Positions 640-40,850 of a stretch of 64,000 nt of DNA are shown here, piece by piece. The position numbers and the translations under genes were made by a program. The notes below the pieces were generated by a model. The model was not told the origin of the DNA. It did no database searches and worked only from the letters and a program-made list of their open reading frames with translations. Numbering within the stretch: position 1 is the first letter of the stretch; the number at the start of each line of letters is the position of its first letter. The stretch is from a virus, in the IMG/VR virus record IMGVR_UViG_3300034101_006325, positions 1 through 64,000 of that record; one strand, 5' to 3'.

Positions 640-898
640 TCTGTGCCTCATGGAGGATTTGTTCCACGGGTTTTTCCGGTTCACCACGTAGATCTCGTTG
701 GGAATCCCTCCATGGTAAACTTCCCTTTTCCCACCTGCGAATCTGTTCCGGTGATTCGAGGAGTTTGATTGAGAATACCTCGGATCCTCGGTTATCAACC
801 TCTTCGATGAGGTGATTGAAACCGATGTGTTCTGCCTCCTTTTCACTTTCACAATCCACCAGGAGTTCGGTGAGGAATGAGATTCGATAGATGGCCAT
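611..898 (-). CDS. Hypothetical protein
   Basis: I place the start at ATG 898 (MAIYRISFLTELLVDCE), giving 95 residues; an open extension to 991 overlaps the neighbour and looks non-coding. The N-terminal half has a beta-alpha pattern with many acidic residues (CESEKEAEHIGFNHLIEEVDN) and the tail is basic and polar. It opens like the next gene (M-A-I-Y), perhaps by chance. It sits inside the small-protein array. No family recognised. Confidence 0.5.
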   Translation of the reverse strand: MAIYRISFLTELLVDCESEKEAEHIGFNHLIEEVDNRGSEVFSIKLLESPEQIRRWEKGSLPWRDSQRDLRGEPEKPVEQILHEAQNGNLPTGKN

Positions 899-932
899 GG
901 TGTTGTATACTAATCCATTTTTGCTGGTGTTT

Positions 933-1142
933 TCATCGAACAATTTCGAGGTATTCGTTGGGAATCCAACCTTTTGAGGTGGGAAATACAACCTGGGAAC
1001 GGTAGATGTGTTGTTCGATAATGATTCCGAGTGAACCGTAGGGGATTACCAGAGATGATTCAACACGATTGTTGAAGAGTTCCGTGTAGGGTAGGGCACC
1101 ACCGGTGTGGCAAACCCTGATCAAGGTTCCTACTGGATACAT
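933..1142 (-). CDS. Small array protein (SH3-like, predicted)
   Basis: A 69-residue protein beginning MYPVGTLIRV and ending with G-W-I-P-N-E-Y-L-E-I-V. This ending (aromatic, P-x-E-Y-L/M-x-x-V) recurs in the neighbouring paralogs and is common in small KOW/SH3-like phage proteins. It overlaps the upstream gene by 13 nt. Function unknown; a role in binding DNA or protein is only a guess from the fold. Confidence 0.65.
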   Translation of the reverse strand: MYPVGTLIRVCHTGGALPYTELFNNRVESSLVIPYGSLGIIIEQHIYRSQVVFPTSKGWIPNEYLEIVR

Positions 1143-1330
1143 GGGTGGATTTCCTGGAGATCCTTGGAATCGAAGGTGTGAACCATGGAGGTTGTTGGAA
1201 CGAGACAGTGGCAGAAGTACATGGTGTACTTGAATTCAACATCGATGATGAGTAGAGGTTGATCGTAGTAAGGTGAGGTGCGGTACTTCGTGAGCCTCAC
1301 CACGGAACCAGGATTGAATGGGAGGCTCAC
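1130..1330 (-). CDS. Small array protein
   Basis: A 66-residue protein starting at GTG 1330, overlapping the stop of the upstream gene as GTGA. It begins MSLPFNPGSVVRLTKY, a variant of the G-D/S-L-V-R opening, and continues with alternating hydrophobic residues (QPLLIIDVEFKYTMYFC). Function unknown. Confidence 0.6.
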   Translation of the reverse strand: MSLPFNPGSVVRLTKYRTSPYYDQPLLIIDVEFKYTMYFCHCLVPTTSMVHTFDSKDLQEIHPCIQ

Positions 1331-1542
1331 TGTTGAACCTCCTTCATGCCAACCGTGCAGATATAACCCACCCGCTGATCGGAGAGAAGCACCTTGGCCC
1401 AGTTATCTCGGTATGGAATCTCAGCTTGGAGGACCAACATAGGTTGATTCTCCAATACGCGGAACGAATCTCCATAGCGAAGATCCGGGTAGAAATTCAC
1501 GTATGAACGAGGAGGAACTACGATGAGAGATCCTGGTTTCAT
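1327..1542 (-). CDS. Small MKPGSL-family protein
   Basis: A 71-residue protein beginning MKPGSLIVVPP, preceded by an AGGAG ribosome binding site 8 nt upstream of ATG 1542. The pattern is short beta strands (PMLVLQAEI, WAKVLLSDQRVGYIC), consistent with a small barrel. It overlaps both neighbours by 4 nt, so the array is probably translated with coupling. Function unknown. Confidence 0.7.
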   Translation of the reverse strand: MKPGSLIVVPPRSYVNFYPDLRYGDSFRVLENQPMLVLQAEIPYRDNWAKVLLSDQRVGYICTVGMKEVQQ

Positions 1543-1790
1543 AGGGAACTCCTGTGTTGTGATGCCGGTTTAAGGAAACGAGCCACACACCAACCGGAAT
1601 GGCCGGTGGAGGAGAGGACCTTGGCATAGGTGACAGTGTGCCAGGACTCGAAGGCGTTGGGAACCTCGGTGATTTCCACGATGATTCCGATGTGACCTCG
1701 GGTGAATGTCACGTTGAAGTCGTAGAGGGAGAGATCGGTGCAGAGATCCACTCCGTCCGCAACCACCATGCTTCCAACTCGAAGTTCCAT
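1539..1790 (-). CDS. Small array protein
   Basis: An 83-residue protein beginning MELRVGSMVVADG, then an I-G-I-I-V-E-I strand and a G-W-C-V-A-R-F-L segment (compare G-W-I-P-N-E-Y-L in the paralog at 933). It is the first gene of this co-directional run; a terminator lies just upstream, so it probably has its own promoter near 1795-1830. Function unknown. Confidence 0.65.
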   Translation of the reverse strand: MELRVGSMVVADGVDLCTDLSLYDFNVTFTRGHIGIIVEITEVPNAFESWHTVTYAKVLSSTGHSGWCVARFLKPASQHRSSL

Positions 1791-1832
1791 GGTATTAGTA
1801 TATCATGGGGAGGCGGGAGATTTCACGGGATG

Positions 1833-1864
1833 AAAAACGACCGGGAGTTTTTAGTTCCCGGTCG
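1833..1864 (-). terminator. Rho-independent terminator
   Basis: A perfect 9-bp inverted repeat pairs CGACCGGGA (1838-1846) with TCCCGGTCG (1856-1864) around a 9-nt loop. On the minus strand a TTTTT run (1833-1837) follows directly. It sits just after the gene ending at 1932, whose transcript it should end. Confidence 0.85.
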
Positions 1865-1931
1865 AAGCTGAACGCAACAGTTCAGACATAATAAATAAAA
1901 TCTATAGTGAATTTCTTCAAAAAAAAGAGTG

Positions 1932-2432
1932 TTATACGCTTAGGTTCCAATACACCTTGATATAAGGAGCAGGACTTGTTGGCATAATTTGTCCATTATC
2001 TTCCCAGTAAGCATACCATTCAAAGAACATTGATTCATCACCTATCCAAATTTCATGTGCCTGGTTGGGTCCTGAAGCATAAATGCTTGCGGGACTGAGT
2101 TCTCTGTTGACGTTAAAACTATCACTGTCCATAAAGCTATTATCGACGGGTCTCCATATGATGTAGTACCAGGTTCCACCGCTTGGTGTAATTGATCCGT
2201 AAGGATATGTCGTGGTGTTTTGATTTATCGTCATACCGTCGAACATCGAATGTGATAAAGTTGTGCCACCTGCGTTTGTGATAGTGGATTCGTAATACGT
2301 CATGGTATAACCGCCAGGAAGAACTGTAGGCTCTCCACCACCACCGCCACCTCCTGATGAAGTGATGCTTATACCACCACCTGTTCCACTAAATTTGATG
2401 GATCCTCCGGATCCGCTTGTTCTTATGGCCAT
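1932..2432 (-). CDS. Gly-rich putative virion or tail-associated protein
   Basis: I start it at ATG 2432 (MAIRTSGSGGSIKFSG), preceded by CGGAG. The product is about 166 residues. The N-terminal 35 residues are nearly all Gly/Ser/Thr with amphipathic strands and end in a G7 run. The rest is Tyr/Trp/Thr-rich with no charged clusters (TWYYIIWRP, FFEWYAYWED). This composition suits an extracellular or virion surface protein such as a fibre tip or head decoration, but I recognise no family. It has its own terminator. Confidence 0.55.
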   Translation of the reverse strand: MAIRTSGSGGSIKFSGTGGGISITSSGGGGGGGEPTVLPGGYTMTYYESTITNAGGTTLSHSMFDGMTINQNTTTYPYGSITPSGGTWYYIIWRPVDNSFMDSDSFNVNRELSPASIYASGPNQAHEIWIGDESMFFEWYAYWEDNGQIMPTSPAPYIKVYWNLSV

Positions 2433-2503
2433 AAAAATCTCCGGACTGAACAACCTAAATTTGTTCAATCAAATATAAATATCAACAAAATTCAATGTTG
2501 AAT

Positions 2504-2704
2504 TCAATTTGATTCGACTCGATCCATGTAATCCTCGTAGAACTGGCGTGTTTTTCCGTCGGGGGTGAGAACCTCTGCGATGTTATCGAGCAATCGATCT
2601 GAGAAGAATGTTCGAAGAACCACGTAGACCTGAGGTTCATCTGAGAACTTTACGAGTTCACCTGGGAGGAGGGGTTCCCTCGGTGTAGGGGGTGATCGTT
2701 TCAT
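2504..2704 (-). CDS. Small array protein
   Basis: A 66-residue protein with G-E-L-V-K-F near residue 16 and a strand followed by T-P-D-G-K-T-R (residues 49-55). The 'T-P-D-G' or 'T-P-x-G' hairpin recurs in the paralogs at 4678, 5086 and 13367. It overlaps the upstream gene by 4 nt (ATGA at 2701-2704). Function unknown. Confidence 0.65.
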   Translation of the reverse strand: MKRSPPTPREPLLPGELVKFSDEPQVYVVLRTFFSDRLLDNIAEVLTPDGKTRQFYEDYMDRVESN

Positions 2705-2889
2705 TTCACAACATCCATGTAGTTCTCAGTTTCTTCCACGATTAGGCCGTCCTGACAGAGAACGAACCACCATCGGTGGTGTTGATCACCCCACCAGTTG
2801 GTTCGAGGAGACTCGTAGAGGATTATTCCGGTAAGGGGAGTTCCTTTCCGTCCCTCTTGCCTCCCGATCACAAAGTCACCCGGTTTCAT
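2701..2889 (-). CDS. Small MKPGDFV-family protein
   Basis: A 62-residue protein beginning MKPGDFVIGRQ. The core is G-I-I-L-Y-E-S then W-W-F-V-L-C-Q-D-G-L-I and the end is Y-M-D-V-V-K. The order 'M-K-P-G-D-x-V ... G-I-I ... V-L-x-x-D-G ... Y-M-x-V' is that of the small SH3-like proteins common in large phages. It overlaps the preceding gene by 14 nt. Confidence 0.7.
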   Translation of the reverse strand: MKPGDFVIGRQEGRKGTPLTGIILYESPRTNWWGDQHHRWWFVLCQDGLIVEETENYMDVVK

Positions 2890-3085
2890 CGATTCTGCTT
2901 AAGTATTGAGGTGAGAGCTGGACTGGTAGTTCACGAATAAAACCGGTGTTGCACACGAGAGTTATCATCATACCTTCAACCTGGGCAACAATCGCGATGG
3001 AACCCCACTGGTGGCCATCTTTCCAGAACTTCGGAATCTTTTCACTGATCCTCACCAGATCACCAGGTTTCATCTCTTTGATCAT
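2876..3085 (-). CDS. Small MKPGDLV-family protein
   Basis: The clearest member of the family: MKPGDLVRI begins at residue 5 (ATG 3073), with an alternative upstream ATG at 3085. It continues with W-G-S-I-A-I-V-A-Q-V, then V-C-N-T-G-F-I, and ends P-Q-Y-L-S-R-I. It is the first gene of its run and is divergent from the AgmX-like gene at 3157, with 71 nt between them. Function unknown. Confidence 0.7.
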   Translation of the reverse strand: MIKEMKPGDLVRISEKIPKFWKDGHQWGSIAIVAQVEGMMITLVCNTGFIRELPVQLSPQYLSRIDETG

Positions 3086-3156
3086 AAAATAACATTCACA
3101 AGTTGTTTATTTCACTTTTTCGGGAACTTATTGTTTCTCCGGTTTTCTAATGCATC

Positions 3157-4446
3157 ATGGCAAAAGAAGAAACTCTCAGTTTTGTTGGCAGTACAAGATC
3201 CGTTGAGTTGAGGTTGGAATGGGGTAACTCAACCTTGAAGATTGTTGATCTAGATCCTCCCAGGAACTTCACTGCTGGAAACACAATACATTGCGATCAT
3301 CAACTTCCCATCAAACCGGTGGAAATCATTCGTGTTGAAGGTGATGATGTTTTTTTATGTGGAGAAAAGTTGGAGTTTGATGTTGAGAAAACCATCGAAC
3401 ATGGTGGTGTTACGTTCCGTGCTCGGCTGGGGGATAGAGGTGAGAAGGTTGTTGGTGGGTTTACGTTGGGAGATGGTGGGTGGTTCAATGGATTATCAGC
3501 AGTGATTCATGCCGCATTCCTGGGTGCAATCTTCTACTACAATCCTCTGCTCAACCCCACGGAGGATGGATCGATAACCGAGGAACAGAGGATTGTTTTA
3601 TCTCAGTATCTCTCCACCGCGGCCGAGAGGGAAGAGAAGAGGATGGAATCCGAGGTGGAGAATGTTGTGAGTGGTGGTGAGGTTGGTGGAAGATCCAAAG
3701 GAAGTGAAGGAAATATGGGGAGTAGTTCCGCTAAACCTTCAAACTCACGTTACTCGGTTGCAGGACCGAAGGATAATCAGGATCCACATGTTTCTAGGCA
3801 GGTTGCACTGAAGGATGCTGAGAACTTTGGGATGGTTGGATTGTTGAGTTCCACCGGAGGAGATACGGATTCTCCAACCTCTCCATGGGGTAGGGATGAT
3901 TCTCTTGGGAATGATGCGGTGAGTTTCAATGGTTCACTTTGGGGGGATCAACCTGGGGATAACTTTGGTTCCAATGGATTGGGACTTTCTGGTATAGGTG
4001 AAGGAAGCGGTGGGCCTGGTGAGGGGATAGGTGTTGGGCCCAACCTGGGTGGGCTAGGAAACAACATTCATCATGGGTTTGGACCGCCAGGAGTGTTATC
4101 GAAGAAGTACGTGCATAAGGATATAAAGATGAGACCGAGTTCGACCAGCGTATCAGGAAGAATTCCGCCTGAGGTAATACAGAGGATTATTCGCCAGAAT
4201 TACGGGAGGTTCAGAGCATGTTACGAAACAGGCTTGAGGAGCAACCCGTCGTTGAGCGGAAGGGTTGCAGTGAGGTTTGTTGTGGGGAGAGATGGATCTG
4301 TGTCGAGTGTTGGAAATGGAGGATCGGATCTTCCTGATGGTGGGGTTGTGAATTGTGTAGTGAATTCCTTCAGGGGTTTATCCTTTCCTGCGCCGGATGA
4401 TGGAATCGTAACGGTAGGTTATTCGATACAGTTCTCTCCGGGATGA
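3157..4446 (+). CDS. AgmX/PglI C-terminal domain membrane protein
   Basis: This 429-residue protein has an N-terminal soluble beta-rich domain (1-108), one predicted membrane segment (about 111-129) and a coiled acidic stretch (about 140-165). A Ser/Gly/Asn-rich linker follows (about 170-330), then a compact C-terminal domain (about 338-427). The last domain carries the G-R-I-P-P-E-V-I-Q-R-I-I-R-Q-N signature, R-A-C-Y-E-x-G-L and a paired Cys, as in the AgmX/PglI C-terminal (TonB-like) family of myxobacterial gliding and envelope proteins. It is an isolated plus-strand gene among minus-strand ones and its codons are GC-richer than the 5-10 kb block. I infer capture from a deltaproteobacterial host; its role for the phage is unknown. 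Confidence 0.75.
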   Translation: MAKEETLSFVGSTRSVELRLEWGNSTLKIVDLDPPRNFTAGNTIHCDHQLPIKPVEIIRVEGDDVFLCGEKLEFDVEKTIEHGGVTFRARLGDRGEKVVGGFTLGDGGWFNGLSAVIHAAFLGAIFYYNPLLNPTEDGSITEEQRIVLSQYLSTAAEREEKRMESEVENVVSGGEVGGRSKGSEGNMGSSSAKPSNSRYSVAGPKDNQDPHVSRQVALKDAENFGMVGLLSSTGGDTDSPTSPWGRDDSLGNDAVSFNGSLWGDQPGDNFGSNGLGLSGIGEGSGGPGEGIGVGPNLGGLGNNIHHGFGPPGVLSKKYVHKDIKMRPSSTSVSGRIPPEVIQRIIRQNYGRFRACYETGLRSNPSLSGRVAVRFVVGRDGSVSSVGNGGSDLPDGGVVNCVVNSFRGLSFPAPDDGIVTVGYSIQFSPG

Positions 4447-13930: not shown

Positions 13931-14712
13931 GAACCCTCCTTGACGATGGATTGAAATCCCATAGAAGTAAATAATTCTTTCACAGCATCCCAATTCTTTG
14001 CAGGAGAAGTAGACGTCATTTCAAGCTTTTCTTGCTCGTTCCAGGCGCGGAACGAAATGAGATCGTAATTTCTTTGAAAAATTTCAGCCTTGCTGCGATC
14101 GGACAAAACCTCGGACAACAGTTCAGGATCACATGCAAGCTTCTCGGCTGTCTTGTCGCCAATGCCAGGAATACCTGGGATATTGTCGGTGGCATCGCCA
14201 CGAAGGGCCTTCCAGGTAACGTAGGGATAGTCAGGAGAATTCACGAAATATTTCTTGACAGGATTATACAAGGAAATATGCGGGAATTCTTGTAGGGCCT
14301 GGATGAAGTCAGTGTCGGATGAGACGACCACCCATGGGACAGCTGTGGATGAGGTCTTGATCAGATTGTAGATGGTATCGTCGGCCTCGGAGGTCGGATG
14401 GCGGACGAGGGTCACGGGGAAATAAGAAGAAAGAAGATTGACGATCGCATCCTTCTGCTTGAAGAACTTCATGAGTTCCTCGTGACGAGGATCATTCTCC
14501 CCCACGATTCGATTAGCCTTGTACTCCGTCATCTGCTCGTGACGATGCACAGGCCTGCCTTCGAGTGCCAAGTAGACGCGGTTAGGTTTGAATTGATCGA
14601 CGAGTGCCCTGAACTGACGAAAGAAGTTGTAAATGACAGCGTGCTCGCCAGCGGTAAATCCACTGCGAGCACGATGGGCTGCGTTCATAAAGTCGATGCA
14701 GAGGATGGTCAT
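13885..14712 (-). CDS. 5'-3' exonuclease / flap endonuclease (copy 1)
   Basis: The FEN/5'-3' exonuclease core is complete: L-C-I-D-F-M-N at the N-terminus, E-A-D-D-T-I-Y acidic cluster, V-V-S-S-D-T-D-F, and the helix-hairpin-helix G-D-A-T-D-N-I-P-G-I-P-G-I-G-D-K-T-A. The start is ATG 14712 (MTILCIDF), although in-frame ATGs exist to 14733. It would remove RNA primers or flaps and degrade DNA 5'-3'. A second family member lies at 61368, so the phage has two, like phages separating RNase H and exonuclease roles. Confidence 0.88.
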   Translation of the reverse strand: MTILCIDFMNAAHRARSGFTAGEHAVIYNFFRQFRALVDQFKPNRVYLALEGRPVHRHEQMTEYKANRIVGENDPRHEELMKFFKQKDAIVNLLSSYFPVTLVRHPTSEADDTIYNLIKTSSTAVPWVVVSSDTDFIQALQEFPHISLYNPVKKYFVNSPDYPYVTWKALRGDATDNIPGIPGIGDKTAEKLACDPELLSEVLSDRSKAEIFQRNYDLISFRAWNEQEKLEMTSTSPAKNWDAVKELFTSMGFQSIVKEGSWQKFHSSFDSLWGV

Positions 14713-14753
14713 GAGGACCATCATAACACGCAAATGATGTTATTGCACAAAGA

Positions 14754-15230
14754 TCAGGTGCCTAGTCTGCCTTGATCTACTTCTTCACGTGAAACAACTT
14801 CACCTGACTTCGTATCTACAACCACCTTTGTCTTGCTGGCGTACATTGGGTCACGCTCATATTTTTCCTGAAAACGTGCTTCACCTTCTACGTAAGATGC
14901 ATTGTCTTGCATCAATTGCTTGACAGCTTCCTTGACAGTTTTACCTTTCAGGTTTTCAAAAACAGCGGATATTTGTTCGGGTGTGTGGCTCTTGTTCAAG
15001 GCTGCGAAAAATTTGTCGTAATTTCCCATTACAGAATCGTAAAGATCTTGTAGTTTGTCGGGAGTTCCCTTGTAAGATTTGAAAAAACGCATAACACCTC
15101 TTGGGTTATACATTGACTTCTTTAGAGCCAAAAATTCCTTGTATGCAGCCATGGAATCACTTGAACCCGCTGCTGCGCTCTCGACAGTTTCACGAATAAT
15201 TCTCTTCAGATCTCCTAGACGTATCTTCAT
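14754..15230 (-). CDS. Tag-bearing protein (N-terminal LIKEE-type peptide)
   Basis: ATG 15230 gives the N-terminus MKIRLGDLKRIIRETVE, one of at least nine copies of a shared N-terminal peptide in this window. AAGAGG and TATATTTA precede it. The rest (about 158 residues) is helical and charged with no known domain. I infer an internal virion protein by analogy with T4 capsid-targeting sequences; this is untested. Confidence 0.65.
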   Translation of the reverse strand: MKIRLGDLKRIIRETVESAAAGSSDSMAAYKEFLALKKSMYNPRGVMRFFKSYKGTPDKLQDLYDSVMGNYDKFFAALNKSHTPEQISAVFENLKGKTVKEAVKQLMQDNASYVEGEARFQEKYERDPMYASKTKVVVDTKSGEVVSREEVDQGRLGT

Positions 15231-15245
15231 GTTGCCTCTTAAACT

Positions 15246-15253
15246 TGAGTAAA
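15246..15253 (-). promoter_or_regulatory. TATATTTA upstream motif
   Basis: TATATTTA on the minus strand, 15 nt upstream of ATG 15230. The same octamer or one-base variants precede many genes here (16011, 20891, 13321, 55674, 49106, 47291, 42663). It is probably a phage promoter element. Confidence 0.4.
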
Positions 15254-15258
15254 TATAA

Positions 15259-16002
15259 TCACGTAAGCAATTGTTCAATAATTTGTGCAGTGTGTTCAGG
15301 GCCTGTGGTTTCTATGCACTGAACGCCCGTGGTTTTCACTGCGTAGTCATTTCCGCCTGGAAACAATGCATCACCGATGAACAACATGTCTTCTTTAGAG
15401 AAACCTAGGTGCTTCTCGATCTGAGAAATACCGTATGCCTTGTCGATACCTTTTCTCGTCACGTCAATGGAAGTTGCGCCGCCGGCCCTCAGGTCAAATT
15501 CTGGCAGAAATTGTCGAAGTTGATCGATGAGGATGAGACGCTTGAAAAAATTCGGATCCCATTTCTTTTTCTCGGTTACGGGAGCCAGCTGACCCATGGC
15601 AGAGAATGTGACCTGTGTGCCACGATTTTCGATCTGATCTCCCCAGAATCTCTTGGGCATGCTAACGCCAGGATCTGCGAGGACTTTTTTAAATGCTGAC
15701 ATGATTTTTTTGACTTCTTCGTCAGTCAGATCCTCACAGTACACTTGAGTCCACTTTGAACCGTCGGGATTGTTGTAAAAACTTGTTCCCGATGTTGGAA
15801 ACAAGTGCAATCGTTTCGTCAAACTTGCTTCCAGCCCAAGTTGATTGACAAGCTGAGACTCGAACTGCGGCCACGCACCGCCCGAAATAACTGCAACATC
15901 GTATGTGTTCAACAGACGTCTGAGAACATCGGACATTTCAGCAGTGATTCTTGACTTGCTTTCTGCGAGCGTCCCGTCGAGGTCGAAAATGATTATCTTC
16001 AT
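15259..16002 (-). CDS. Phosphomannomutase-like HAD phosphatase
   Basis: The start is ATG 16002 (MKIIIFDLDGTLAES), with TATATTTA 8 nt upstream. The 247-residue protein has the HAD nucleophile motif F-D-L-D-G-T-L, V-I-S-G-G-A-W, a C2 cap with Q-V-T-F-S-A-M-G-Q, and G-D-A-L-F-P-G-G-N-D-Y-A-V. The last is a signature of eukaryotic-type phosphomannomutases (HAD-IIB). It could interconvert mannose-6-P and mannose-1-P, or act as a phosphatase. It complements the mannose-isomerase-like cupin at 6480. Confidence 0.8.
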   Translation of the reverse strand: MKIIIFDLDGTLAESKSRITAEMSDVLRRLLNTYDVAVISGGAWPQFESQLVNQLGLEASLTKRLHLFPTSGTSFYNNPDGSKWTQVYCEDLTDEEVKKIMSAFKKVLADPGVSMPKRFWGDQIENRGTQVTFSAMGQLAPVTEKKKWDPNFFKRLILIDQLRQFLPEFDLRAGGATSIDVTRKGIDKAYGISQIEKHLGFSKEDMLFIGDALFPGGNDYAVKTTGVQCIETTGPEHTAQIIEQLLT

Positions 16003-31690: not shown

Positions 31691-32602
31691 TTAGTTTACA
31701 ACATCTGTTCTAATGTGTGCACTATTCATGTTAATGATTAATCGAATTTTTTCTACAGACCACTGAAAAACTTTTGGCATAAACGCCGAAAGATGTGCAA
31801 GAAATCTTGTGTCGATCTCGCCATTTTTTTCGACATCTGTGCTTCTAAGAGTACAAATGACAGTAATTTTATTACTTCTAGGTAAAAAATGGATAGATGA
31901 TATGCAAGTATCTGAAGAATAATAAAAACGCCGAGAGTTCATGTCCTGAGGTTTGTTGTATGGATTGTCTCCATTGATTTCTTTTTGAATGACCTTGGCA
32001 CAGTCATCAATAATTCCATTATAATAATGAATTTCTCGAGGATCATCGCACACAGCAAAATCGCTGTAATCGGGGTCAAGAACCAACTCAAAGTTAATTT
32101 GTGTTTCCGACGACGACAAACCTTTTAGGACATTTACTAAAGATTGACCAACCTCTCGAGGACTAGAATTTTCGTACTCTTCAAGTTTACTCTTTACAAG
32201 ATCAGTCAAGTCGTCCAAATTTAGCGCATCCCGTACAACTAACACATTAGGAGAATTTTGCAAGACATCAACTTCATTATTAAAGATATCATAAAGTCTG
32301 GACAGGGATGTTGCGTCTTGGGCTTCGTCACCTCGTGAATTAAATCTTCGAAGAATCTCTTCCTTTGGAGGCAAAAGAACCACGACAAAGTTATTCAAAT
32401 TGCTGACTTCTTTGGTCAAAGAAATACGATGATGTGACTCATCCCTACCGTAAAGCTTGGCGTAACACAGCATTGATAGACAAGATCTATCCTGAATATT
32501 GTATTTAAAACCAGTCGAACGGTGTAAAGAAGAATAAAGTGAAGTTTTGCCGCTTAGATCAGAACCCTCAAGAATCAAGTAATTGACAGGAAGACTCATC
32601 AT
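31691..32602 (-). CDS. P-loop (d)NMP kinase fused to a thymidylate-synthase-like domain
   Basis: Residues 1-155 form a P-loop kinase: Y-L-I-L-E-G-S-D-L-S-G-K-T-S, then a lid-like R-R-F-N-S-R-G-D. Residues about 165-303 differ and resemble the C-terminal half of thymidylate synthase family proteins: I-C-T-L-R-S-T-D-V, D-x-R-F-L-A-H-L, then I-R-L-I-I-N-M-N-S-A-H-I. The catalytic Cys region is not evident, so the second domain may bind dUMP or a modified nucleotide rather than catalyse. It overlaps the polymerase gene by 4 nt. I infer a nucleotide-modifying or kinase role. Confidence 0.6.
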   Translation of the reverse strand: MMSLPVNYLILEGSDLSGKTSLYSSLHRSTGFKYNIQDRSCLSMLCYAKLYGRDESHHRISLTKEVSNLNNFVVVLLPPKEEILRRFNSRGDEAQDATSLSRLYDIFNNEVDVLQNSPNVLVVRDALNLDDLTDLVKSKLEEYENSSPREVGQSLVNVLKGLSSSETQINFELVLDPDYSDFAVCDDPREIHYYNGIIDDCAKVIQKEINGDNPYNKPQDMNSRRFYYSSDTCISSIHFLPRSNKITVICTLRSTDVEKNGEIDTRFLAHLSAFMPKVFQWSVEKIRLIINMNSAHIRTDVVN

Positions 32603-35600
32603 GCCACCTTTCTCAGCTTAAAAATTGATGTTGAAAATCCCCAACTAGGATCGTTCGATGCTTGACCTACCCAAAGTGTATAAGGATCAATAGATTCCGT
32701 TGGATTACCCCAGATTCTAATCCAGCCTTGACGTGAATCATTGTCAATAGCCTTGCACCGATAGAATGCCTTTCCATTCTTTGTCTTTTTAAGGTTGACT
32801 TCAGTCACGAGAAACCAACCTATACCGTCAGAACCAGGCTGTACATCGTGCAATGATTGGACACCTTTTTCAAGGAGTTTTTTCATAATGTCGGGAGGAA
32901 ACAATAGATCGACGTCTGCTGTGGAAGTAAGATCATATGCCATGCTGATCTTTTCATCTCGCGTCCAATCTACAGTACTGGCTTGCTCCTCCAGCAACAC
33001 GTCAATTACTGGCAGCGGATCGATTCCTTCTTTTGCAAGCTTTTTTAGCTGAGCTGCAGTTAAACCATAGATTCCTTTTCGCAAGGTTTCATAATTTTTA
33101 TCTTCAGTCAAAGCCAACAATAATTGTCTGTGGTGTCTTACAGACCCTCCTTGAAAATCTTCAAGTGATTCCAGAGCTTCAATCTTGCAAAGTGCTGAAA
33201 GTGCAGTCTTATTGACCTTGCTGTGACGCCAATTTCCTTCTGCATCATAAAGCATTTCTTTGAGATTTTTGTAAGGTCTATTCTCCATAATTTCGTCGAC
33301 TGCAGTTGAACCAATACCCTTGGCTGAAGTAATAGGAGGAACAAATGCATCGGCTTTTTCAGAAAACTGCCATTCTTTACCTGAATAATTGATATCAATC
33401 TTGGAAAATTTGTATCCTAAAGACTTAATTTCACCAATTACCTTTGTCAGCTCTTTGGGATTTGAATTTGCCGACTGAAGAATCGTGGCAAGCCAGTCCT
33501 TCTCATAGTGAGTGTGGAGCCAGGCAGCATAGTAAGAGTCGATCGCATATGCGACGGAGTGTGACTTGTTGAAGCCATAGAGGGAGAAGAACTCGATCTT
33601 GTCGAACAGGGCATTGGTGATGTCCTCCGAGATTCCGTGGATCTCCTTTGCGCCCTTCACGAACTTCTCGCGGAGCATCGCCTTCTCGCCGCCCTTCTTG
33701 TCGAGGGTGTCGAGAGACTTCTTGACGAGAGTCTTGCGCATCTGATCTGACTCGCCAGGATTGAAGCCTGCAAGCTCAACGGCCAGGGACATGAACTGCT
33801 CCTGGAAAGTGATGAACCCGCGAGTCGGTCCGAGGACCTTCTCGATCAGCGGATGGTCGTATTTAATCTTGGTCAGGTCCTTGCCGGCGTCGACGTACAT
33901 GTTGTGGACGTTCGCTTTGAGGGGGCCAGGGCGATAGATCGCCGTGATTGCTGACAGGTCTTCGATGCAGTTTGGTTGAGACTGCATGCAGAACTTTCGA
34001 GCTCCCTGAGCAGTGAACTGAAACACTCCGACGAATCGTCCCTCATGGTAGACATGTTTCCAAACCTCGGGGTCGTCCTGCTTCACGTAGCGACAGTTGA
34101 GGTGCTTGTCGAAGAACGCCTTCACGTTGAGGAAGGTGGGATCAGGGTTTCCCTGGTTGACGAGGATCCGACGGATGCAGTTCTCCACGTCCTTGAGGAG
34201 CGTGAGTCCGAGGAAGTCGAACTTGAGGAAGCCGTTGTCCTCCAGGTTGCGGAAGTTCATGCCTTCCGTCCACGGGGTCTGCAGTTCGCCTCGGACGCCG
34301 ATGATGGGCATCGTGGCTGCAAGGTCGTCCGGATCTGCCACGATGACGCCGCCGGCGTGTCGACCGACGGATCGGTTCTGCATAAAGAGCGTCTCGACGT
34401 GTGCCGCGACGTCTGGGTACTTCTCCATGAATGCCTTGTACTTCGGAGAGTACTTCATGCAGTCCTCGTGCTTCAGGACGAAGACGGACTTCTCCTGATC
34501 GTCGTCGCGGGCGAGCGGCATCACCTCGTCCTGAAGCGGACCCGTCATCTCGTTCACCTCCTCGAAGGGCACGCCGTAGATCTTGGCGATGTCCTTGACG
34601 AGGGACTTGAGCTTCAAGGTGTTGAAGTTCGACACCGGGATCACAGCGTCGTCGCCGAACAGCTCGCGTGCCGAGTCGATCAGGGCATCGCGGTCGCCTG
34701 CGTCGGAGTCGATGTCGGGCCACGACACGCGATGGCGGCCTAGGAAACGGCTCCACAGGAGACCGTAAGGCAGGGGATCGATCTGAGTGATGCCGAGGAG
34801 GTAGTTGACGAGTGAACCTGCGCCTGAACCACGGCCGGGGCCGAACAGGGTCCGAGTCTCCGCCTTCTTGAAGATCTTGTACATCGTCACGAAGTAGGAA
34901 GCGTGACCGAGGTACTTGATGTCGGACAGCTCCTCCTTCACGCGGGCGACGTATTCTGGTTTGTCAGACAGGCCTTCACGAATCAGGGCCTCCTTGACGA
35001 GCTCAGTGAGCTGCTGGAATGTTGTCTTGCCTGGCATGTCCAGCTTCGGTAGCTTTGCTTTAACATCGACCCATGTATCCTCACAATGTTGCCATGCGAT
35101 ATCATGGGTCCTCTCGATGGCGTCTCGGACCTCCTCCTCGGAGCCTCGATAGAACTCGTACTGCTCGTAGGACTTCTTGTACTCGTCCCACATCTGGGAT
35201 GCATTCTTCGGATACAGCTCGCACTTAAGATCTTCGAACTTTGGAAGTGCCTGTTCGTCGAGCTTAGCACCCATCCATCCAAGCTTCTTGTAGAGCTCAC
35301 GGGCCTGCCACTTCGACGGGTCGGGATAGTGGGAATCGCAGGTGGCGAGCAGCTTGACGCCGGACTTTCGAGACAGGTCGATGAGGTACCTGTTGACCGT
35401 GTGCTGCTTCGGCAGCTTGTTGAACTGGATCTCGAGGAAGAAGTTCTCGGTCCCCACCGCATCCGTGAACCTGTCCGTGAGGTTCATCAGCTCGGAGATG
35501 ATCTGCTCCGAGTTCTTGCCGTAGGCCTCGCCGCGGAGGATCGTGCCGCTGTAGATTCCACCAAGGCAGGCCGTGGACCACACGATCCCCTTGCCGTACT

Positions 35601-36224
35601 TCCGGAGGAGGTCGAAGTCGATGCGTGGATAGCGGTAGAAACCGTCCTTGAACGACGCCTTCACGAGGCGATTGATGTTCGCGAGACCTTCGGCGGTCTG
35701 CGCCACCGCCACGAGGTGGTAGCGACGCTGCCAGTCGGGCTTCTCCTTGTAGTCGTCTGCCTTCGTCTCGTTCTCGTCCTCGACGACGTGTCCGCCGGCC
35801 TCTTCCTCCTCCACCTCGTCAGCGTCGACGTCGGTCCGGACCTTCGCCTTCTTCTCGGCCTCCGCAGCGGTCTTCGCGTCCTTGATCGCCTGCTTGTGTG
35901 CCTCGTAGTCGATCTTCCACTGTGTCAGCGAAGGAACGAAGTAGAACTCCACACCGTAGAGCTGCCGGTACTTCACGCCCTTCTTCTGCAGCTTCTTTGC
36001 TGCGGAATGAGCGTGTGCGAGGCCGTTGCCGTTGCCGTGGTCGGTCAGGGCCCACGCGTCCATCCCCTGTGATTCGGAGACAATCCACTTTATATGATCC
36101 TCGGGATAGCCAAGTCCGTCAAAAGTTGAGAAACCCGAAAAGCCGCCCCTGAACAAGCCAGGGGCGGCACCTACGAATGCGCGTGGAAACCGACGAATTT
36201 CTTCGGCGGCGTCACATCGCGCAT
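32599..36224 (-). CDS. dnaE: DNA polymerase III alpha subunit, probably completed by translational bypass
   Basis: The main frame (32599-36135) has PHP, palm and fingers: A-L-T-D-H-G-N, the palm aspartates in P-D-I-D-S-D, K-F-D-F-L-G-L, and a fingers segment with F-S-L-Y-G-F-N-K-S-H-S. A charged insert (about residues 85-140) interrupts the PHP domain. The metal-binding start of PHP (F-V-G-F-H-A-H-S) lies in a different frame at 36174-36215, ending in TAG at 36171-36173. Skipping 35 nt joins it to G-F-S-T-F-D-G. AAGGAG (36225-36230) could serve GTG 36215 (9 nt); ATG 36224 and ATG 36248 are alternatives. The first two thirds are visibly GC-richer than the last 900 bases. It is the replicative polymerase, acting with the helicase at 59939. 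Confidence 0.9.
36136..36176 (-). other. Candidate programmed translational bypass site
   Basis: Minus strand: take-off codon TCG (36176-36174) is followed at once by TAG (36173-36171), a 35-nt gap, then landing codon TCG (36138-36136) and GGT TTC TCA ACT. The gap holds a perfect 10-bp stem, GCCGCCCCTG (36168-36159) with CAGGGGCGGC (36051+100 to 36142), loop of 7 nt; that is, the 3' arm is 36151-36142. AGGGG in that arm lies 7 nt before the landing codon. The matched codons, stop, hairpin and Shine-Dalgarno-like sequence parallel T4 gene 60. Bypass gives H-A-H-S-G-F-S-T-F-D-G, the exact PHP motif spacing. Confidence 0.75.
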
Positions 36225-36234
36225 CTCCTTAAAA

Positions 36235-36264
36235 GTGTTAGATGACATGATAACAATCTAACAC
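36235..36264 (-). promoter_or_regulatory. Inverted repeat around possible polymerase start codon
   Basis: GTGTTAGA and TCTAACAC (plus strand 36235-36242 and 36257-36264) form an 8-bp stem with a 14-nt loop that contains ATG 36248. AAGGAG lies just downstream. It may be an operator or an RNA hairpin controlling polymerase translation; autogenous hairpins are known for T4-type polymerases. Confidence 0.5.
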
Positions 36265-36355
36265 GCGAAATCTGTCGTTTACACACGGGAAGCAAATGCA
36301 GTTCGAGGCGAAACCCGAAGGAATCGCCTCAATTGCGTTTCTTTGAGGCTCTTTC

Positions 36356-36607
36356 TCAGATGTCCGTGACGGTGCCGTCTTCGTCGAGCTTGAGACCGAC
36401 ATCAAAGAGCTGCTGATCAGTGATCGCGCCTGGATACACCGCGAGTGCAGACTCGAGATCCTCAATAGAGACATAGCCTCCCTCCAAGTAGATCTCATCG
36501 AATGCGTCACGGAGCTCGAGGTTGCTTACGGATTCACGTGTCTCTCGGATTACTTTTCGTGCTTCTTCCTTGATGATGGAACGCAACTGCTTTACTGTGA
36601 TCTTCAT
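36356..36607 (-). CDS. Tag-bearing small protein
   Basis: An 83-residue protein starting M-K-I-T-V-K-Q-L-R-S-I-I-K-E-E-A, one of the best copies of the shared tag. The rest resembles a small helical domain (L-R-D-A-F-D-E-I-Y-L-E-G-G-Y-V-S-I-E-D-L) ending L-D-E-D-G-T-V-T-D, loosely like an EF-hand loop. It lies upstream of the polymerase gene. AAGGAG is about 12 nt before ATG. Function unknown, presumed virion protein. Confidence 0.65.
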   Translation of the reverse strand: MKITVKQLRSIIKEEARKVIRETRESVSNLELRDAFDEIYLEGGYVSIEDLESALAVYPGAITDQQLFDVGLKLDEDGTVTDI

Positions 36608-36643
36608 GTCTGACGCGTCTCCTTGCTTACGTAGCGCTACTGT

Positions 36644-37648
36644 CTAATTATTAGGACATTTTGGAAAGTGCTGCAAGAGGTCAAACTTATGCTCGGCCGC
36701 CTCGTCGAGGTACTTTAGCGGATTATAGTCGGAAGAATTGCGGATCCATTCCAGCGTCCGCTGAATACCGTCGAGCAAATCAAGTGTTGGTTTCCAACCA
36801 AGCTTTTCTCGAATTTTTCTGGATGACAACCGGTGGTTTCCGAGATAGTCTGTTGTCGGGTGCCACCTCACGAGATCAGATGCCGATGCACCGACAACAT
36901 CGTCTATAATCTTCATCACTTCTCCTGCAGGCACTGGTGTCTCCGCGGAGACGTTCCAGTCTGTCCCCCAACCGGGCCCGGAGACGTCGCGGCATACTAG
37001 CTCAACAGCCCTGCAAAAATCCTCCACATGGAGGTAGTCCTTTACCTTCGTCGGATCCAGAAACATATCCACGGATTTCTTTCCGTTGAGGTAAGCATAA
37101 ATCGACTTCGCGATGAGCGAATTCATATCACCGAGGCCACCAAACGCGAATAGCGGTCGAACGATAGTCCACCTATCTGCCATTGCTGTGACAATCTGTT
37201 CTGCGGCGAGCTTCTGGACGCCATAATAAGTCCGAGGAATCTTTGTTGAATTTTCTACAATCTGTTCGTCTTGATAACTCTTCGTATCATAGATGACAGT
37301 TGTTCCTAGATAGCAAACTGCAGCCTTTGCTCGATTGGCAGCACGAACAATGTTGTATGTGCCTTGGACGTTGGATAGTGTCGCCTCTGCAGGATCAAGG
37401 GCAACCACGTCTGTTCCGACCACAGCAGCATTGTGAACGACGACGTCGACATCATTGTCGTAAAGCGCTTTATGCCAAGTTTCCTCCGAATTCCTGTGGA
37501 TGCATGCCTCCCCGGTGCGTGGAAACTTGACGTAATCTATTCCCTCGAACAGATCCTTGTCGGTCACGACTTCCTGTGAAAGAGATTCTAGAACGACCTT
37601 GAGATTACGAGCGATCAGGCCCTGTGGTCCGGTGATATAGTACTTCAT
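36644..37648 (-). CDS. NAD-dependent epimerase/dehydratase (copy 2)
   Basis: A 334-residue SDR-extended enzyme with G-P-Q-G-L-I-A-R-N (a variant Rossmann loop), V-H-N-A-A-V-V-G-T, Y-L-G-T-T-V-I-Y and the catalytic Y-Y-G-V-Q-K. H-V-E-D-F-C-R-A-V-E-L-V and R-K-I-R-E-K-L-G-W-K-P complete the family pattern. It is about 25-30% like copy 1 by eye and probably acts on a different nucleotide sugar. The DNA is GC-richer than the flanking small genes. Confidence 0.85.
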   Translation of the reverse strand: MKYYITGPQGLIARNLKVVLESLSQEVVTDKDLFEGIDYVKFPRTGEACIHRNSEETWHKALYDNDVDVVVHNAAVVGTDVVALDPAEATLSNVQGTYNIVRAANRAKAAVCYLGTTVIYDTKSYQDEQIVENSTKIPRTYYGVQKLAAEQIVTAMADRWTIVRPLFAFGGLGDMNSLIAKSIYAYLNGKKSVDMFLDPTKVKDYLHVEDFCRAVELVCRDVSGPGWGTDWNVSAETPVPAGEVMKIIDDVVGASASDLVRWHPTTDYLGNHRLSSRKIREKLGWKPTLDLLDGIQRTLEWIRNSSDYNPLKYLDEAAEHKFDLLQHFPKCPNN

Positions 37649-37734
37649 CGTTGTCTCAGTCTAAAACAAAATATCAGACTTTACACGTCGACAATATAAT
37701 GACGCAATATTTCTGAGCCTTCCATGCTAAATAC

Positions 37735-37759
37735 AAAAAAGGAAGCATTGCTGCTTCCT
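37735..37759 (-). terminator. Rho-independent terminator
   Basis: AGGAAGCA (37740-37747) pairs with TGCTTCCT (37752-37759) around a 4-nt loop; on the minus strand TTTTTT (37735-37740) follows. It ends the operon whose last gene is the deoxyribosyltransferase at 37785. The 137-nt gap to 37648 holds this and probably the epimerase promoter. Confidence 0.9.
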
Positions 37760-37784
37760 CTCATTGTTTAATTGGCGATATTGT

Positions 37785-38258
37785 TCACTCAATTTCCTTG
37801 TCGTAAGGCTCATACAACAGCTCACCAGCAGTCTTACAGCGCTCGAGGTAATCCTCCAACTGATCAAATGATGTGCAGACCTTGATGCCGCTGCGACTGA
37901 GCATCAAATTAAACTTTGCACCAGAAGGGAGATTTTCGCAGAAATAAACGATCTTGGTGCCGTATGCATATGATGCACCGGCCTCCCAGATGGTACCAAT
38001 GTCGCGGTATGTCGTGTTGACGAGGCAGAAATCAGCCTTCTTGATGTGATCAACATTGCCCTTGAACACATTGTCCTGTACCTCCTGCGTTGCATCTGGT
38101 GGACAGACGAAGATTCGACGGGGGGACGCAAGGTTTATCCAGGCAGAGCGATCGTCAAAGACCTTTTCCAACTTTGTGAGTTGCTTGTCCTGATCTGGAG
38201 AAAACCAACCTGATGCCAAATATACGTGAAGCTTACGACCAAAATTATTAGCGCTCAT
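37785..38258 (-). CDS. Nucleoside 2-deoxyribosyltransferase-like protein
   Basis: The 157-residue protein shows Y-L-A-S-G-W-F at the start, a D-F-C-L-V-N core strand and the G-T-I-W-E-A-G catalytic region with Glu, A-S-Y-A-Y-G-T-K-I-V-Y. These match nucleoside 2-deoxyribosyltransferases (also the fold of phage DNA-base-modification hydrolases). It could exchange bases on deoxynucleosides or hydrolyse modified nucleotides. It follows the FNR-like and ThyX-like genes in one operon ending at the terminator. Confidence 0.78.
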   Translation of the reverse strand: MSANNFGRKLHVYLASGWFSPDQDKQLTKLEKVFDDRSAWINLASPRRIFVCPPDATQEVQDNVFKGNVDHIKKADFCLVNTTYRDIGTIWEAGASYAYGTKIVYFCENLPSGAKFNLMLSRSGIKVCTSFDQLEDYLERCKTAGELLYEPYDKEIE

Positions 38259-38267
38259 ATGTTCCTT

Positions 38268-38849
38268 TCAAAAATTAGTATGATAGTTTATATTCAAATA
38301 CTGGGCGTCGAGAGCAACATCGCTGACAAGAGATTTTGGTCCTGCGACGAAGACTTCCGTGCTGCTCTGACCATTGTACAGGTAGCGGAGAAGTTGTTTA
38401 GGGCGTGAGCAATTTTTTGTGTTTACAAAATAAGCTCGTGCAAATTGTGGATAAAAATTGCTGAGGGCTAGAGGATCAAGTCCACGCGAACAGATGCCGA
38501 TCATAGGATTTATTCCTCTGCTGAAGAGTTGATTGATCAAAAGTGCGACTGCTCCAACGCCAGTGCCACCAGCAATCACGATGGCTGATGAAGATGATGC
38601 TGTTGGAAAACCTTTGCCGGAAGGAAATTCAACCTTGTCGATCTCCTCGCGAAAGAGGAAGGAGCTAGATTTGACGATGAATGTCAGCGTGGAATCGGTA
38701 AAATCGGCGATCGCAACCCACCTGCCGTTGACGACTGCACAGGATCCTGGAATAATGTGCTGTGTTAGCCCAGGATGGGTCAGGACGACTTTCTGATAAT
38801 CTCCACCAAGGTTTGTATTCTCGATTATTTGAAAATTATCCTGACCCAT
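38268..38849 (-). CDS. FNR-type flavin/NAD(P)H reductase-like protein
   Basis: A 193-residue protein with a ferredoxin-NADP reductase fold. The N-terminal barrel has G-L-T-Q-H-I-I-P-G-S-C-A-V-V and the NAD(P) domain has I-V-I-A-G-G-T-G-V-G-A-V-A-L-L-I (a G-G-T-G-x-x-P-like loop), I-G-I-C-S-R-G and E-V-F-V-A-G-P-K. It lacks the Fe-S cysteines of dihydroorotate-dehydrogenase electron-transfer subunits. It starts 7 nt after the ThyX-like gene, so it may supply reduced flavin to that enzyme; this is an inference. Confidence 0.72.
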   Translation of the reverse strand: MGQDNFQIIENTNLGGDYQKVVLTHPGLTQHIIPGSCAVVNGRWVAIADFTDSTLTFIVKSSSFLFREEIDKVEFPSGKGFPTASSSSAIVIAGGTGVGAVALLINQLFSRGINPMIGICSRGLDPLALSNFYPQFARAYFVNTKNCSRPKQLLRYLYNGQSSTEVFVAGPKSLVSDVALDAQYLNINYHTNF

Positions 38850-38856
38850 TGCCGTG

Positions 38857-39840
38857 TCACTTTCCGTTCTTCCAGTCGTCGTGGCGCGACTTTAGTGTGG
38901 ACCAGTCGGTCATGTCCTTGTTCCACAGCTCAGTAAAGCGTTTTTGTTGACCGGAGCCATGGGTGCCATTCAGTTCCTCACGCGTTGATTGGTAGATCGT
39001 ATCATTTGGATGAAACTCAAAGATATCGTTCTTCTTGATCGGCCAATAGAGATTGGTTCCCCTCGACACAAACTTGTCGCCTTCCTTGACCCTGAAGGTC
39101 TTGACATAGTGCATGTCAGGCTTGTTGAAGTCGATGACAGAAGTAAATTCTGGCATCACCTTGGCGACTTCCACTGCCATTCGAGAGGCGAGGAGATTGT
39201 CGGCGGCAGGCTGAATCTGTGTGTCCATGCGTTGGTAGATGAATCCAATCAGATCCTTTAGTGATAGACGCATGTAATAGAACGAAGTCATGCACTTTGG
39301 CAGGATCATCCTCGCATCCATCATTGATACGACCTTGGAATCTGTCATGTCGGCGTAGAGCTGCTTTGATTCCTCAACAAGCTTAGTCCATCGTGCGAGA
39401 AACTCGGGTGAGTTCTGGACGGGCTCCGGGATTACAGCATCGTCGTCGCGGAGGTCGCGGTCTCCAGTGCACTGTGCTGCGAAAGTGCCAGCGCGGTGGC
39501 GGATGATGTGTGTCACCTCCTGGAAGGAGAGACCGCTGAGGCGGAACGTGAAGCCGAGACACTCCATCGGTGCAGGAAGAGTACGTCCTCCGAACACGTC
39601 CTCGAGGTTCTTGGAAAGTTCACGCTCAGTTACACCTCGTGTAGGATCAATATCCGGGCGATCGGCCCATGTGGCCTTGACATAGTGCCATGCAACATTC
39701 CAGGCCTGTTGTCGCGTGGGGTGGTCGACGAGTTCCACCTTGAGTGCGTCGAGGTTGTTGTGGAATTGTGTCTTTGGCTTGCGGCCAAACTTGAGTTCCA
39801 TGGGAAGATCTACGGGCTGAAGGTCACGATTAATAGGCAT
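38857..39840 (-). CDS. Divergent ThyX-like flavin-dependent enzyme
   Basis: A 327-residue protein with ThyX elements: G-F-T-F-R-L-S-G-L-S-F-Q-E-V-T-H-I-I-R-H-R-A-G-T-F, and later R-M-I-L-P-K-C-M-T-S-F and Y-Q-R-M-D-T-Q-I-Q-P. The canonical R-H-R-x5-S-x-R-Y motif is altered: the Ser position reads Cys in Q-C-T-G-D-R-D-L-R, and Tyr is absent. An orthodox ThyX is also encoded at 56278. This copy may be a thymidylate or pyrimidine-modifying enzyme such as a hydroxymethylase-like variant. Confidence 0.72.
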   Translation of the reverse strand: MPINRDLQPVDLPMELKFGRKPKTQFHNNLDALKVELVDHPTRQQAWNVAWHYVKATWADRPDIDPTRGVTERELSKNLEDVFGGRTLPAPMECLGFTFRLSGLSFQEVTHIIRHRAGTFAAQCTGDRDLRDDDAVIPEPVQNSPEFLARWTKLVEESKQLYADMTDSKVVSMMDARMILPKCMTSFYYMRLSLKDLIGFIYQRMDTQIQPAADNLLASRMAVEVAKVMPEFTSVIDFNKPDMHYVKTFRVKEGDKFVSRGTNLYWPIKKNDIFEFHPNDTIYQSTREELNGTHGSGQQKRFTELWNKDMTDWSTLKSRHDDWKNGK

Positions 39841-39887
39841 TTGTTACTCCTTGAGATTGTGTATTATACGCGCTAATTTGAAACATT

Positions 39888-40850
39888 TCACTGCAAAGAT
39901 TCAAGTATGATATTTGCGGCATCGAAGGGATCCGAGCCTTCCGAGACGTAGGTTATATTCTTGAGAGAAGACACCTCTGTGTTGTATGTCTTCTGGGGTA
40001 CGACAACTTGGACACCATGCTTTGCATATTCTGCAGAATGTTTGGCCGAGTCGTCAACGGCAAAAAACTTTCCCGTCGAATAGAATTTTTGGTCCGCCAC
40101 CCAAGCAAATTTTTCAGGTGCAAAAGTTATTGCATCTGCAGGTATGTTGTGCCTGTAGAGCCACGAGTATGTGTCGTAGAAACATGTAAGATTTTTTTCA
40201 GGTCGTGCCGTGATTATCTGGATCCAGCAGCCTTTGTCTTTCAGTTTCCTCAGCGTCTCACAATATCGATGATTGGGATGAAGCCCCAAAAAACCATGCT
40301 TGTCAATAAAAGTTCTAAAATAATACTCATTGCTCAAGCCGTGCTTTTTAAACGTCGTAACGTTATAATATTCGGGACAATGAGGATCGATGAAAATTCC
40401 GCTATCTTTTGTGACAAACTCGCAGAAAGACGATCTAAACTCCGCCAAGACATCGTCCATGTCGAAAAGAACAACAGGCTCACCATTCCACTTTCTTTGT
40501 GAGAGCGTGTGTCTATAGTGCAGAAATTCATCCTTCTGCTTCAAGGCGTTCACAAATTGATCACCATCAATTGAGCACAAATTTAAAATTGCAAGAATAT
40601 AACGATATGCATCTACAGATTTATAGAGGACTTTTTGAGAGTCAATTGAATCGGGCAGAAGCCGATGATTCTTGTAATTTGCGCCTTCGACGATCCCCGT
40701 CGCTTCAGAATGTAAAGACAAAACAAAGGTCTTGAGCAATTCCTGCTTCTGACTCAGGGTGAGCTGTTTTTCATCAAAAAACAGAGATGAAAAATCTGCT
40801 TGACGCGACAAGGCATCAAGCAGATTTCCCCAATCAATTTGTGAATTCAT
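39888..40850 (-). CDS. HAD 5'(3')-deoxyribonucleotidase-like protein with helical N-terminus
   Basis: The 320-residue protein is in two parts. Residues 1-125 form a helical domain without known match. Residues about 125-320 form a HAD phosphatase with V-V-L-F-D-M-D-D-V-L-A-E-F (nucleophile and acid Asp), W-I-Q-I-I-T-A-R-P and F-F-A-V-D-D-S-A. F-x-D-M-D-D-V-L resembles phage/mitochondrial 5'(3')-deoxyribonucleotidases. It could dephosphorylate a specific dNMP and shape the pool. In operon with the nucleotide genes. Confidence 0.75.
   Translation of the reverse strand: MNSQIDWGNLLDALSRQADFSSLFFDEKQLTLSQKQELLKTFVLSLHSEATGIVEGANYKNHRLLPDSIDSQKVLYKSVDAYRYILAILNLCSIDGDQFVNALKQKDEFLHYRHTLSQRKWNGEPVVLFDMDDVLAEFRSSFCEFVTKDSGIFIDPHCPEYYNVTTFKKHGLSNEYYFRTFIDKHGFLGLHPNHRYCETLRKLKDKGCWIQIITARPEKNLTCFYDTYSWLYRHNIPADAITFAPEKFAWVADQKFYSTGKFFAVDDSAKHSAEYAKHGVQVVVPQKTYNTEVSSLKNITYVSEGSDPFDAANIILESLQ

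Follow-up and report, generated by a model that had tools for sequence, protein, structure and literature searches.

The window analysed here, a stretch of 64,000 nucleotides (nt) corresponding to positions 1 to 64,000 of the 200-kb IMG/VR virus record IMGVR_UViG_3300034101_006325, carries on its minus strand a DNA polymerase III alpha gene that is broken inside its PHP motif by a stop codon and a 38-nt insert. Comparison with related phage genes suggests that the polymerase is most probably made as one protein by programmed ribosomal bypassing, the inserts of one class (class A, see below) being spread by mobile cassettes. The locus would also quite likely belong to a widespread, mobile family of sites in phage DNA polymerase genes at which the ribosome is programmed to hop. 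One type in this family would combine a homing endonuclease of the T7 endonuclease I type, a leader folding back on the codons before take-off, and a stop codon plus a serine landing triplet within 5-12 nt; the second type would be the endonuclease-free hairpin form found in the window.

A DNA polymerase gene interrupted within its PHP motif

The first reading frame, V/M-TPPKKFVGFHAHS, runs up to a serine codon TCG followed directly by TAG (Table 1). A second TCG lies 35 nt past the first one in another frame, where it is followed by GGT TTC TCA ACT TTT GAC GGA and belongs to a 1,185-codon polymerase open reading frame (ORF) at 32599-36156. When the insert is omitted and TCG is joined to TCG, the protein reads F-H-A-H-S-G-F-S-T-F-D-G-L-G, and the Pfam PHP (PF02811) score reaches 85.4 bits for the joined protein versus 75.1 bits for the ORF alone. 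Matches to PF02811, PF07733 and PF17657 exceed the curated cut-offs, indicating that the PHP, NTPase/palm and finger domains of a bacterial-type Pol III alpha are present. The original prediction, made from the letters of this sequence, had described the TCG-TAG take-off site, the second TCG and the restoration of the PHP motif by their joining; its coordinates proved exact on the minus strand, and the gain in Pfam score agrees with the restored motif.

Within the gap, the arms 36142-36151 and 36159-36168 form a perfect, GC-rich stem of 10 base pairs (bp) closed by a 7-nt loop, again exactly as predicted, and the gap region folds about 4.5 standard deviations better than its shuffles. The AGGGG (36150-36146) that had been pointed out does end 7 nt before the landing TCG, but it is locked inside the gap stem, and the short inserts of the relatives lack such a sequence. 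We considered whether the hairpin could be an element repeated across the window's genome and rejected this on its single occurrence in the 200-kb record. Upstream, the first frame is open to ATG 36248, 25 codons ahead of the gap, and GTG 36215 is a start with a better Shine-Dalgarno sequence. Depending on the start, the first segment comprises 14-25 residues before take-off.

Table 1. Features of the interrupted polymerase gene in the window.
Feature	Position	Strand	Remarks
First segment (ORF1)	36174..36248	-	ATG 36248 or GTG 36215 to take-off TCG; ends F-V-G-F-H-A-H-S
Shine-Dalgarno-like AAGGAG	36225..36230	-	9 nt before GTG 36215; from sequence
5' arm GATGCGCG of stem ending at take-off codon	36218..36225	-	Common to L167 and L169
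3' arm CGCGCATT of leader stem	36176..36183	-	Ends on the first base of the take-off codon
Take-off codon TCG (Ser)	36174..36176	-	From sequence
Stop TAG directly after take-off	36171..36173	-	Stop at the same position in 14/15 distinct inserts
Gap hairpin, 10-bp perfect stem, 7-nt loop	36142..36168	-	Folding; one copy in the 200-kb record
Landing codon TCG	36136..36138	-	From sequence
38-nt insert relative to uninterrupted relatives	36136..36173	-	Comparison with relatives
Second segment (ORF2), DNA polymerase III alpha body, resumption codon GGT to stop	32599..36135	-	PF02811, PF07733, PF17657, PF14579

Inserts recur at the same motif in related phages

An IMG/VR scan with the polymerase yielded 80 loci, and further scans with an upstream endonuclease (see below) and with other polymerases added more, leading to 93 distinct loci, window included, that were compared. 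In uninterrupted genes, 15 nt separate the H-x-H motif from the F/Y/M-D-G motif. The gene is uninterrupted in 66 loci, contains one extra codon in a single locus (L179) and carries an insert in 26. Most of these inserts (22 of 26, class A) are 5-12 nt long and are located at HxHSGFS^TFDG, three codons downstream of the window's site. The other four (class B) are hairpin inserts placed exactly at the window's codon, HxHS^GFS, and measure 38 nt in the window, 42 nt in L167 and L169, and 68 nt in L076. The L167 and L169 inserts are in frame and share one stem, and in L076 the take-off codon lies inside the stem. H-x-H-S is retained in every interrupted locus. The class A inserts, with the take-off codon before the slash, are TCC/TAGGTATCT, TCG/TAGATATCT, TCC/TAATAATCT, TCC/TGAATAATCT, TCC/TAAGTAATCT, TCT/TGAAAAATCT, TCG/TAATAATATCA, TCG/TGACCTAAATCG, TCG/TAAAGTTACG, TCG/TAACG and TCG/TAGCTTG.

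The original prediction held that related polymerase genes should lack the insert. This is the case for the closest intact relative of the window, L055 (89% identical), but it is not general, as 26 of the 93 loci are interrupted. The prediction had also judged a chance restoration of the motif to be of low likelihood, and chance is now excluded mainly by the 25 other distinct loci, whose inserts sit at the same motif and follow the same logic. That the insert arose in sequencing or assembly, or that the window's gene is dead, would agree with the finding of the exact 38-nt insert in one record only; this is nevertheless extremely improbable, given that other metagenomes supplied L167, L169 and L076 with class B inserts at this very codon, that there are 22 class A loci, and that the remaining reading frame of nearly 1,180 codons is intact. 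Assembly error was rejected in view of the independent loci with inserts.

A pattern scan for further hairpin-class inserts turned up only the L167 and L169 contigs. The 42-nt inserts of these two loci have identical stems and exactly inverted loops (TTTATT and AATAAA), and once the hairpin is removed they correspond to TAATAATATCA, identical to the complete 11-nt insert of L036. Polymerase genes with long insertions at other conserved places were also observed (L042, L051, L055, L062, L069, L072, L076, L078 and L079). These insertions, several of them in L076, are intein- or intron-like and lie near residues 186, 466 and 852 in the numbering of the window's polymerase. In L086 and L087, the ends are intein-like and an endonuclease-like ORF follows or overlaps.

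Most inserts share an immediate stop and a serine landing triplet

The inserts reduce to 15 distinct sequences. A stop follows the serine take-off codon immediately in 14 of them, and in 12 a serine TCN triplet stands just ahead of the resumption codon. In all 15, the triplet at this place matches the take-off codon at no fewer than two positions (TCG and TCG in the window). Since insert length is free, from 5 to 68 nt, the frame varies, and frames 0, +1 and +2 as well as all three stop codons are represented; whatever the length, no residue is gained or lost in the joined protein.

This diversity bears on conventional recoding, in which a hairpin-stimulated -1 frameshift at or before TCG would join the halves in the window with about 13 extra residues (HAHS-VGAAPGLFRGG-FSGFSTFDG), and stop readthrough would do so in the in-frame relatives. 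The -1 frame is indeed open over the window's gap and back to 55 nt before it, and the strong hairpin begins 5 nt past the take-off codon. However, no classical slippery heptamer was seen at the site, and the extra residues would land in a metal-binding motif of constant spacing (15 nt in 66 of the 67 loci without an insert). Moreover, the polymerase frame is closed within the insert in L069, L085, L101 (with two tandem in-frame stops), L024, L076, L167, L169 and the group of 9-nt inserts, and therefore a single frameshift at or before the stop cannot link the halves in these loci. Taken with the three frames and three stops found among relatives, this makes conventional recoding quite improbable for the window, and a single kind of frameshift, or readthrough of the stop, was rejected as an explanation for the family as a whole, because all frames and all stops would be needed.

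Removal of the insert from the RNA as a very short processed intron, followed by ordinary translation, is more improbable still. The TC common to both edges fits precise excision, and introns or inteins occur elsewhere in the polymerase gene of relatives, but a stop placed directly after take-off in nearly all distinct inserts suits a ribosomal mechanism and not splicing. Moreover, no self-splicing element is known to be as short as 5-42 nt.

Class A leaders can pair with the codons before take-off

The leaders of class A loci contain an inverted repeat of the codons located directly before take-off, such as GAGAACCCTGTGT with ACACAGGGTTCTC(C TAA) in L101, GAAAAGCCTGTGT with ACACAGGCTTTTC(G TAA) in L036, and GAGAAGCCGG with CCGGCTTCTC(C TGA) in L069. 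Intact loci have a median leader-duplex energy of -8.8 kcal/mol, and class A loci one of -28.0 kcal/mol (Mann-Whitney p = 4e-12; the p-values of this study are not corrected for shared ancestry, apart from the tree test described below). Two or fewer of 200 shuffled leaders were as good or better in 95% of class A loci versus 2% of intact loci. The stem of the 5-nt group is weaker and bulged. A comparison of ten class A elements that share a register gave 115 cells with double compensatory differences versus 18 with broken pairs over ten pairs, these cells being pairwise counts and not independent events. For T4 gene 60, reviews describe a 5' stem-loop that forms again in the wake of the ribosome and so drives or ratchets its movement (PMC5009743, PMC11194080); the class A stems occupy the equivalent place.

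In class B, leader stems similar to the window's were found in L167 (z -5.0) and L169 (z -5.6). L165, an uninterrupted sister of these two loci, has the same leader and stem (z -3.8), and it may be a former insert carrier, or the stem may predate the insert.

In class A groups, both coding halves evolve mostly by synonymous change

Codon differences within the two larger class A groups are mostly synonymous on both sides of the gap. In the 9-nt group, synonymous differences outnumber nonsynonymous ones 82:16 ahead of the gap and 335:60 past it; the corresponding counts for the 5-nt group are 27:17 and 72:48. These counts are relevant to the possibility that the gap is never crossed, the polymerase starting instead at TTG 36156 in the gap or at the ATG at codon 24 after landing, as an enzyme without the H-x-H part, and the first segment being a leader peptide or a decaying remnant. 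In-frame starts are available downstream and the DNA polymerase domains lie past the gap, yet such a downstream start appears unlikely: class A codons change mostly synonymously before the gap and also between the gap and the first downstream start, and H-x-H-S is kept in all interrupted loci. In addition, landing triplets retain TC although they would have no role there, leader stems show compensatory change, and TTG 36156 lies in the hairpin loop region with no Shine-Dalgarno sequence.

Proposed mechanism of bypassing

We propose that the ribosome would read the short first segment up to the take-off TCG and meet TAG in its A site. The peptidyl-tRNA(Ser) would then release the mRNA and the ribosome would cross the gap, aided by refolding of the 5' stem (36225-36218 with 36183-36176) behind it and by the gap hairpin. 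The tRNA would re-pair with the second TCG and decoding would restart at GGT, giving the normal PHP motif F-H-A-H-S-G-F-S-T-F-D-G. Class A inserts would protect the target of a homing endonuclease and spread along with it. What the sequences show directly is the anatomy, its recurrence in related phages, the mostly synonymous change on both sides of the gap in class A groups, and the class A association of insert, stem and endonuclease; we infer ribosome hopping, its efficiency, the roles of both stems and the spread of class A with the endonuclease. The bypassing suggested by the original prediction gains support from this comparison, through the recurrent inserts, the serine landing triplet, the immediate stop, the use of all frames, the class A synonymous change and the 5' stem at take-off.

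Several observations weigh against bypassing, mainly in the window. The 38-nt insert comes from a single record, class B comprises four loci, and, for the window alone, the -1 frame has no stop within the gap. The synonymous excess between the window and L055 is weak (3:2 in 8 codons before the gap, 8:4 in 20 after). The window's leader stem (GATGCGCG with CGCGCATT) is shorter than those of class A and of modest strength (z -2.4, with 4 of 200 shuffles doing as well); the intact locus L165 shares it, and L076 has no leader stem; the class B stem is therefore only suggestive. Among the class A inserts, those of L001, L087 and the 5-nt group have ACG or TTG as their last triplet and not a serine codon, and therefore re-pairing would need mismatch tolerance in these three distinct inserts. 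Imperfect landing matches have been reported for mitochondrial bypassing elements (byps) (PMC5009743). Finally, the nascent-peptide signal of T4 is absent, because the first segment has only 14-25 residues.

A putative endonuclease gene or its remnant accompanies most class A inserts

Of the 22 class A loci, 19 carry a putative homing endonuclease gene, or a remnant of it, immediately ahead of the polymerase. In the gene product (about 300 amino acids), the N-terminal half is rich in cysteine and the nuclease domain resembles that of T7 endonuclease I (PDB 1m0d, E 1.9e-7); the protein matches PHROGs endonuclease and homing-endonuclease families, and falls slightly under the cut-off of Pfam Phage_endo_I. 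In the set found via the polymerase alone, the endonuclease is present in 11 of 18 interrupted loci versus 0 of 61 intact loci (Fisher p 3.5e-9). On a quick polymerase tree with about 17 changes of interrupted state, it goes along with interruption in about 8 of 11 independent pairs, and none showed the opposite.

Only the 3' part of the endonuclease is left in L024 and L072, and none in L022, L170 and L181; insert and stem persist in all five. Distant endonuclease genes or remnants stand ahead of uninterrupted polymerases in L094, L096, L098, L099 and L102. Such a pattern is what a homing cassette that was later lost would look like. We propose this origin for class A only and do not extend it to the class B insert of the window, where neither endonuclease nor remnant was found beside the polymerase gene and no member of the family elsewhere in the record.

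More distant endonucleases of the same family in L104-L106 directly precede another gene (MAAYKEQYYNLAE...), which means that further sites are in use by this family; no comparable break was found in the first 330 nt of the genes that follow the endonucleases of L103-L106. A search of isolated phages for the same cassette gave only distant endonuclease matches, among them one in Agrobacterium phage OLIVR4 surrounded by small hypothetical genes. Endonuclease relatives were not found in bacterial and archaeal genomes, and a second endonuclease scan gave nothing new.

Comparison with known bypassing systems

T4 gene 60 has long been nearly alone as a proven phage case of programmed bypassing, so that the essential signals and the origin of the gap are hard to judge. 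The loci described here differ from it by affecting the PHP motif of Pol III alpha, by using serine instead of glycine codons, and by having recurrent inserts of 5-68 nt. As in T4, class A has a homing endonuclease just upstream, sometimes degraded, but MobA of T4 is an HNH enzyme, whereas the class A nuclease domain is of the T7 endonuclease I type and the window has no endonuclease. The mobA homing-endonuclease cassette and the gene 60 gap were reportedly treated together by Bonocora et al. 2011 (as cited in PMC8300805). The T4 stimulator, KKYK, lies in the nascent peptide about 30 residues before the P site, and no signal of this type was seen here. Bypassing in gene 60 (reviewed in PMC5009743, PMC3014915, PMC11194080) spans a 50-nt gap, mobA precedes the gene, and a model invokes a homing cassette that was later lost (PMC5009743, PMC3014915). 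The T4 gene 60 elements named in the original prediction were recovered: matching codons, stop and, in class B only, gap hairpin. As far as its sequence goes, the window would work like gene 60; its membership of the T4 type is partial, because the nascent-peptide feature and an endonuclease are absent and the product is deduced from sequence.

Class A inserts also resemble synthetic E. coli stop-hops, in which matched codons flank a stop over a very short distance (PMC5009743), as in TCC TAG GTA TCT, although here they are natural, lie in a replication gene and come with a leader stem. No natural in-frame stop-hop was known to a 2016 review (PMC5009743). The byps of Magnusiomyces capitatus mitochondria are likewise short inserts that need skipping, with landing codons sometimes imperfectly matched, but these 81 inserts are scattered over many mitochondrial genes and reported to be context-independent (PMC5009743), whereas ours are confined to a single site of one phage gene family and come with an endonuclease and a stem specific to their context. 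The origin from a byp-like element initially suggested thus gives way to the closer T4 mobA-gene 60 cassette, with an endonuclease or remnant upstream of most class A inserts, though not in the window. Bypassing has also been proposed in other phage genes, the terminase of Streptomyces phage Hau3 (PMC5009743) and the tape measure gene of Mycobacterium phage Corndog, which adjoins an HNH gene (PMC4351075); these are single loci and not comparative series. In the literature searched, mostly without subscription journals, bypassing had not previously been described for phage polymerase genes.

The present loci form a natural series within one gene family, with 15 distinct inserts of 5 to 68 nt in all frames, uninterrupted sisters, and an endonuclease that is apparently intact alongside some inserts and lost at others. 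Direct tests of the minimal signal, of what the 5' stem does and of a homing origin thus become possible. If the proposal is true, the series would provide natural stop-hops and several independent signals for bypassing, in a field in which T4 gene 60 was the one well-characterised phage case. In practice, gene callers truncate interrupted polymerases of this kind.

Other features of the locus

A search of the window's own record revealed no tRNA genes. At 36235-36264, an inverted repeat of 9 bp (GTGTTAGAT / ATCTAACAC) holds the upstream ATG 36248 in its loop and may influence the choice of start codon. Finally, the first half of the polymerase gene (window positions 34001-36000) has a G+C content of 59% versus about 37-44% across most of the window, where otherwise only parts of 1-4000, 14001-16000 and 36001-40000 exceed 45%, and this half is possibly a recent acquisition.
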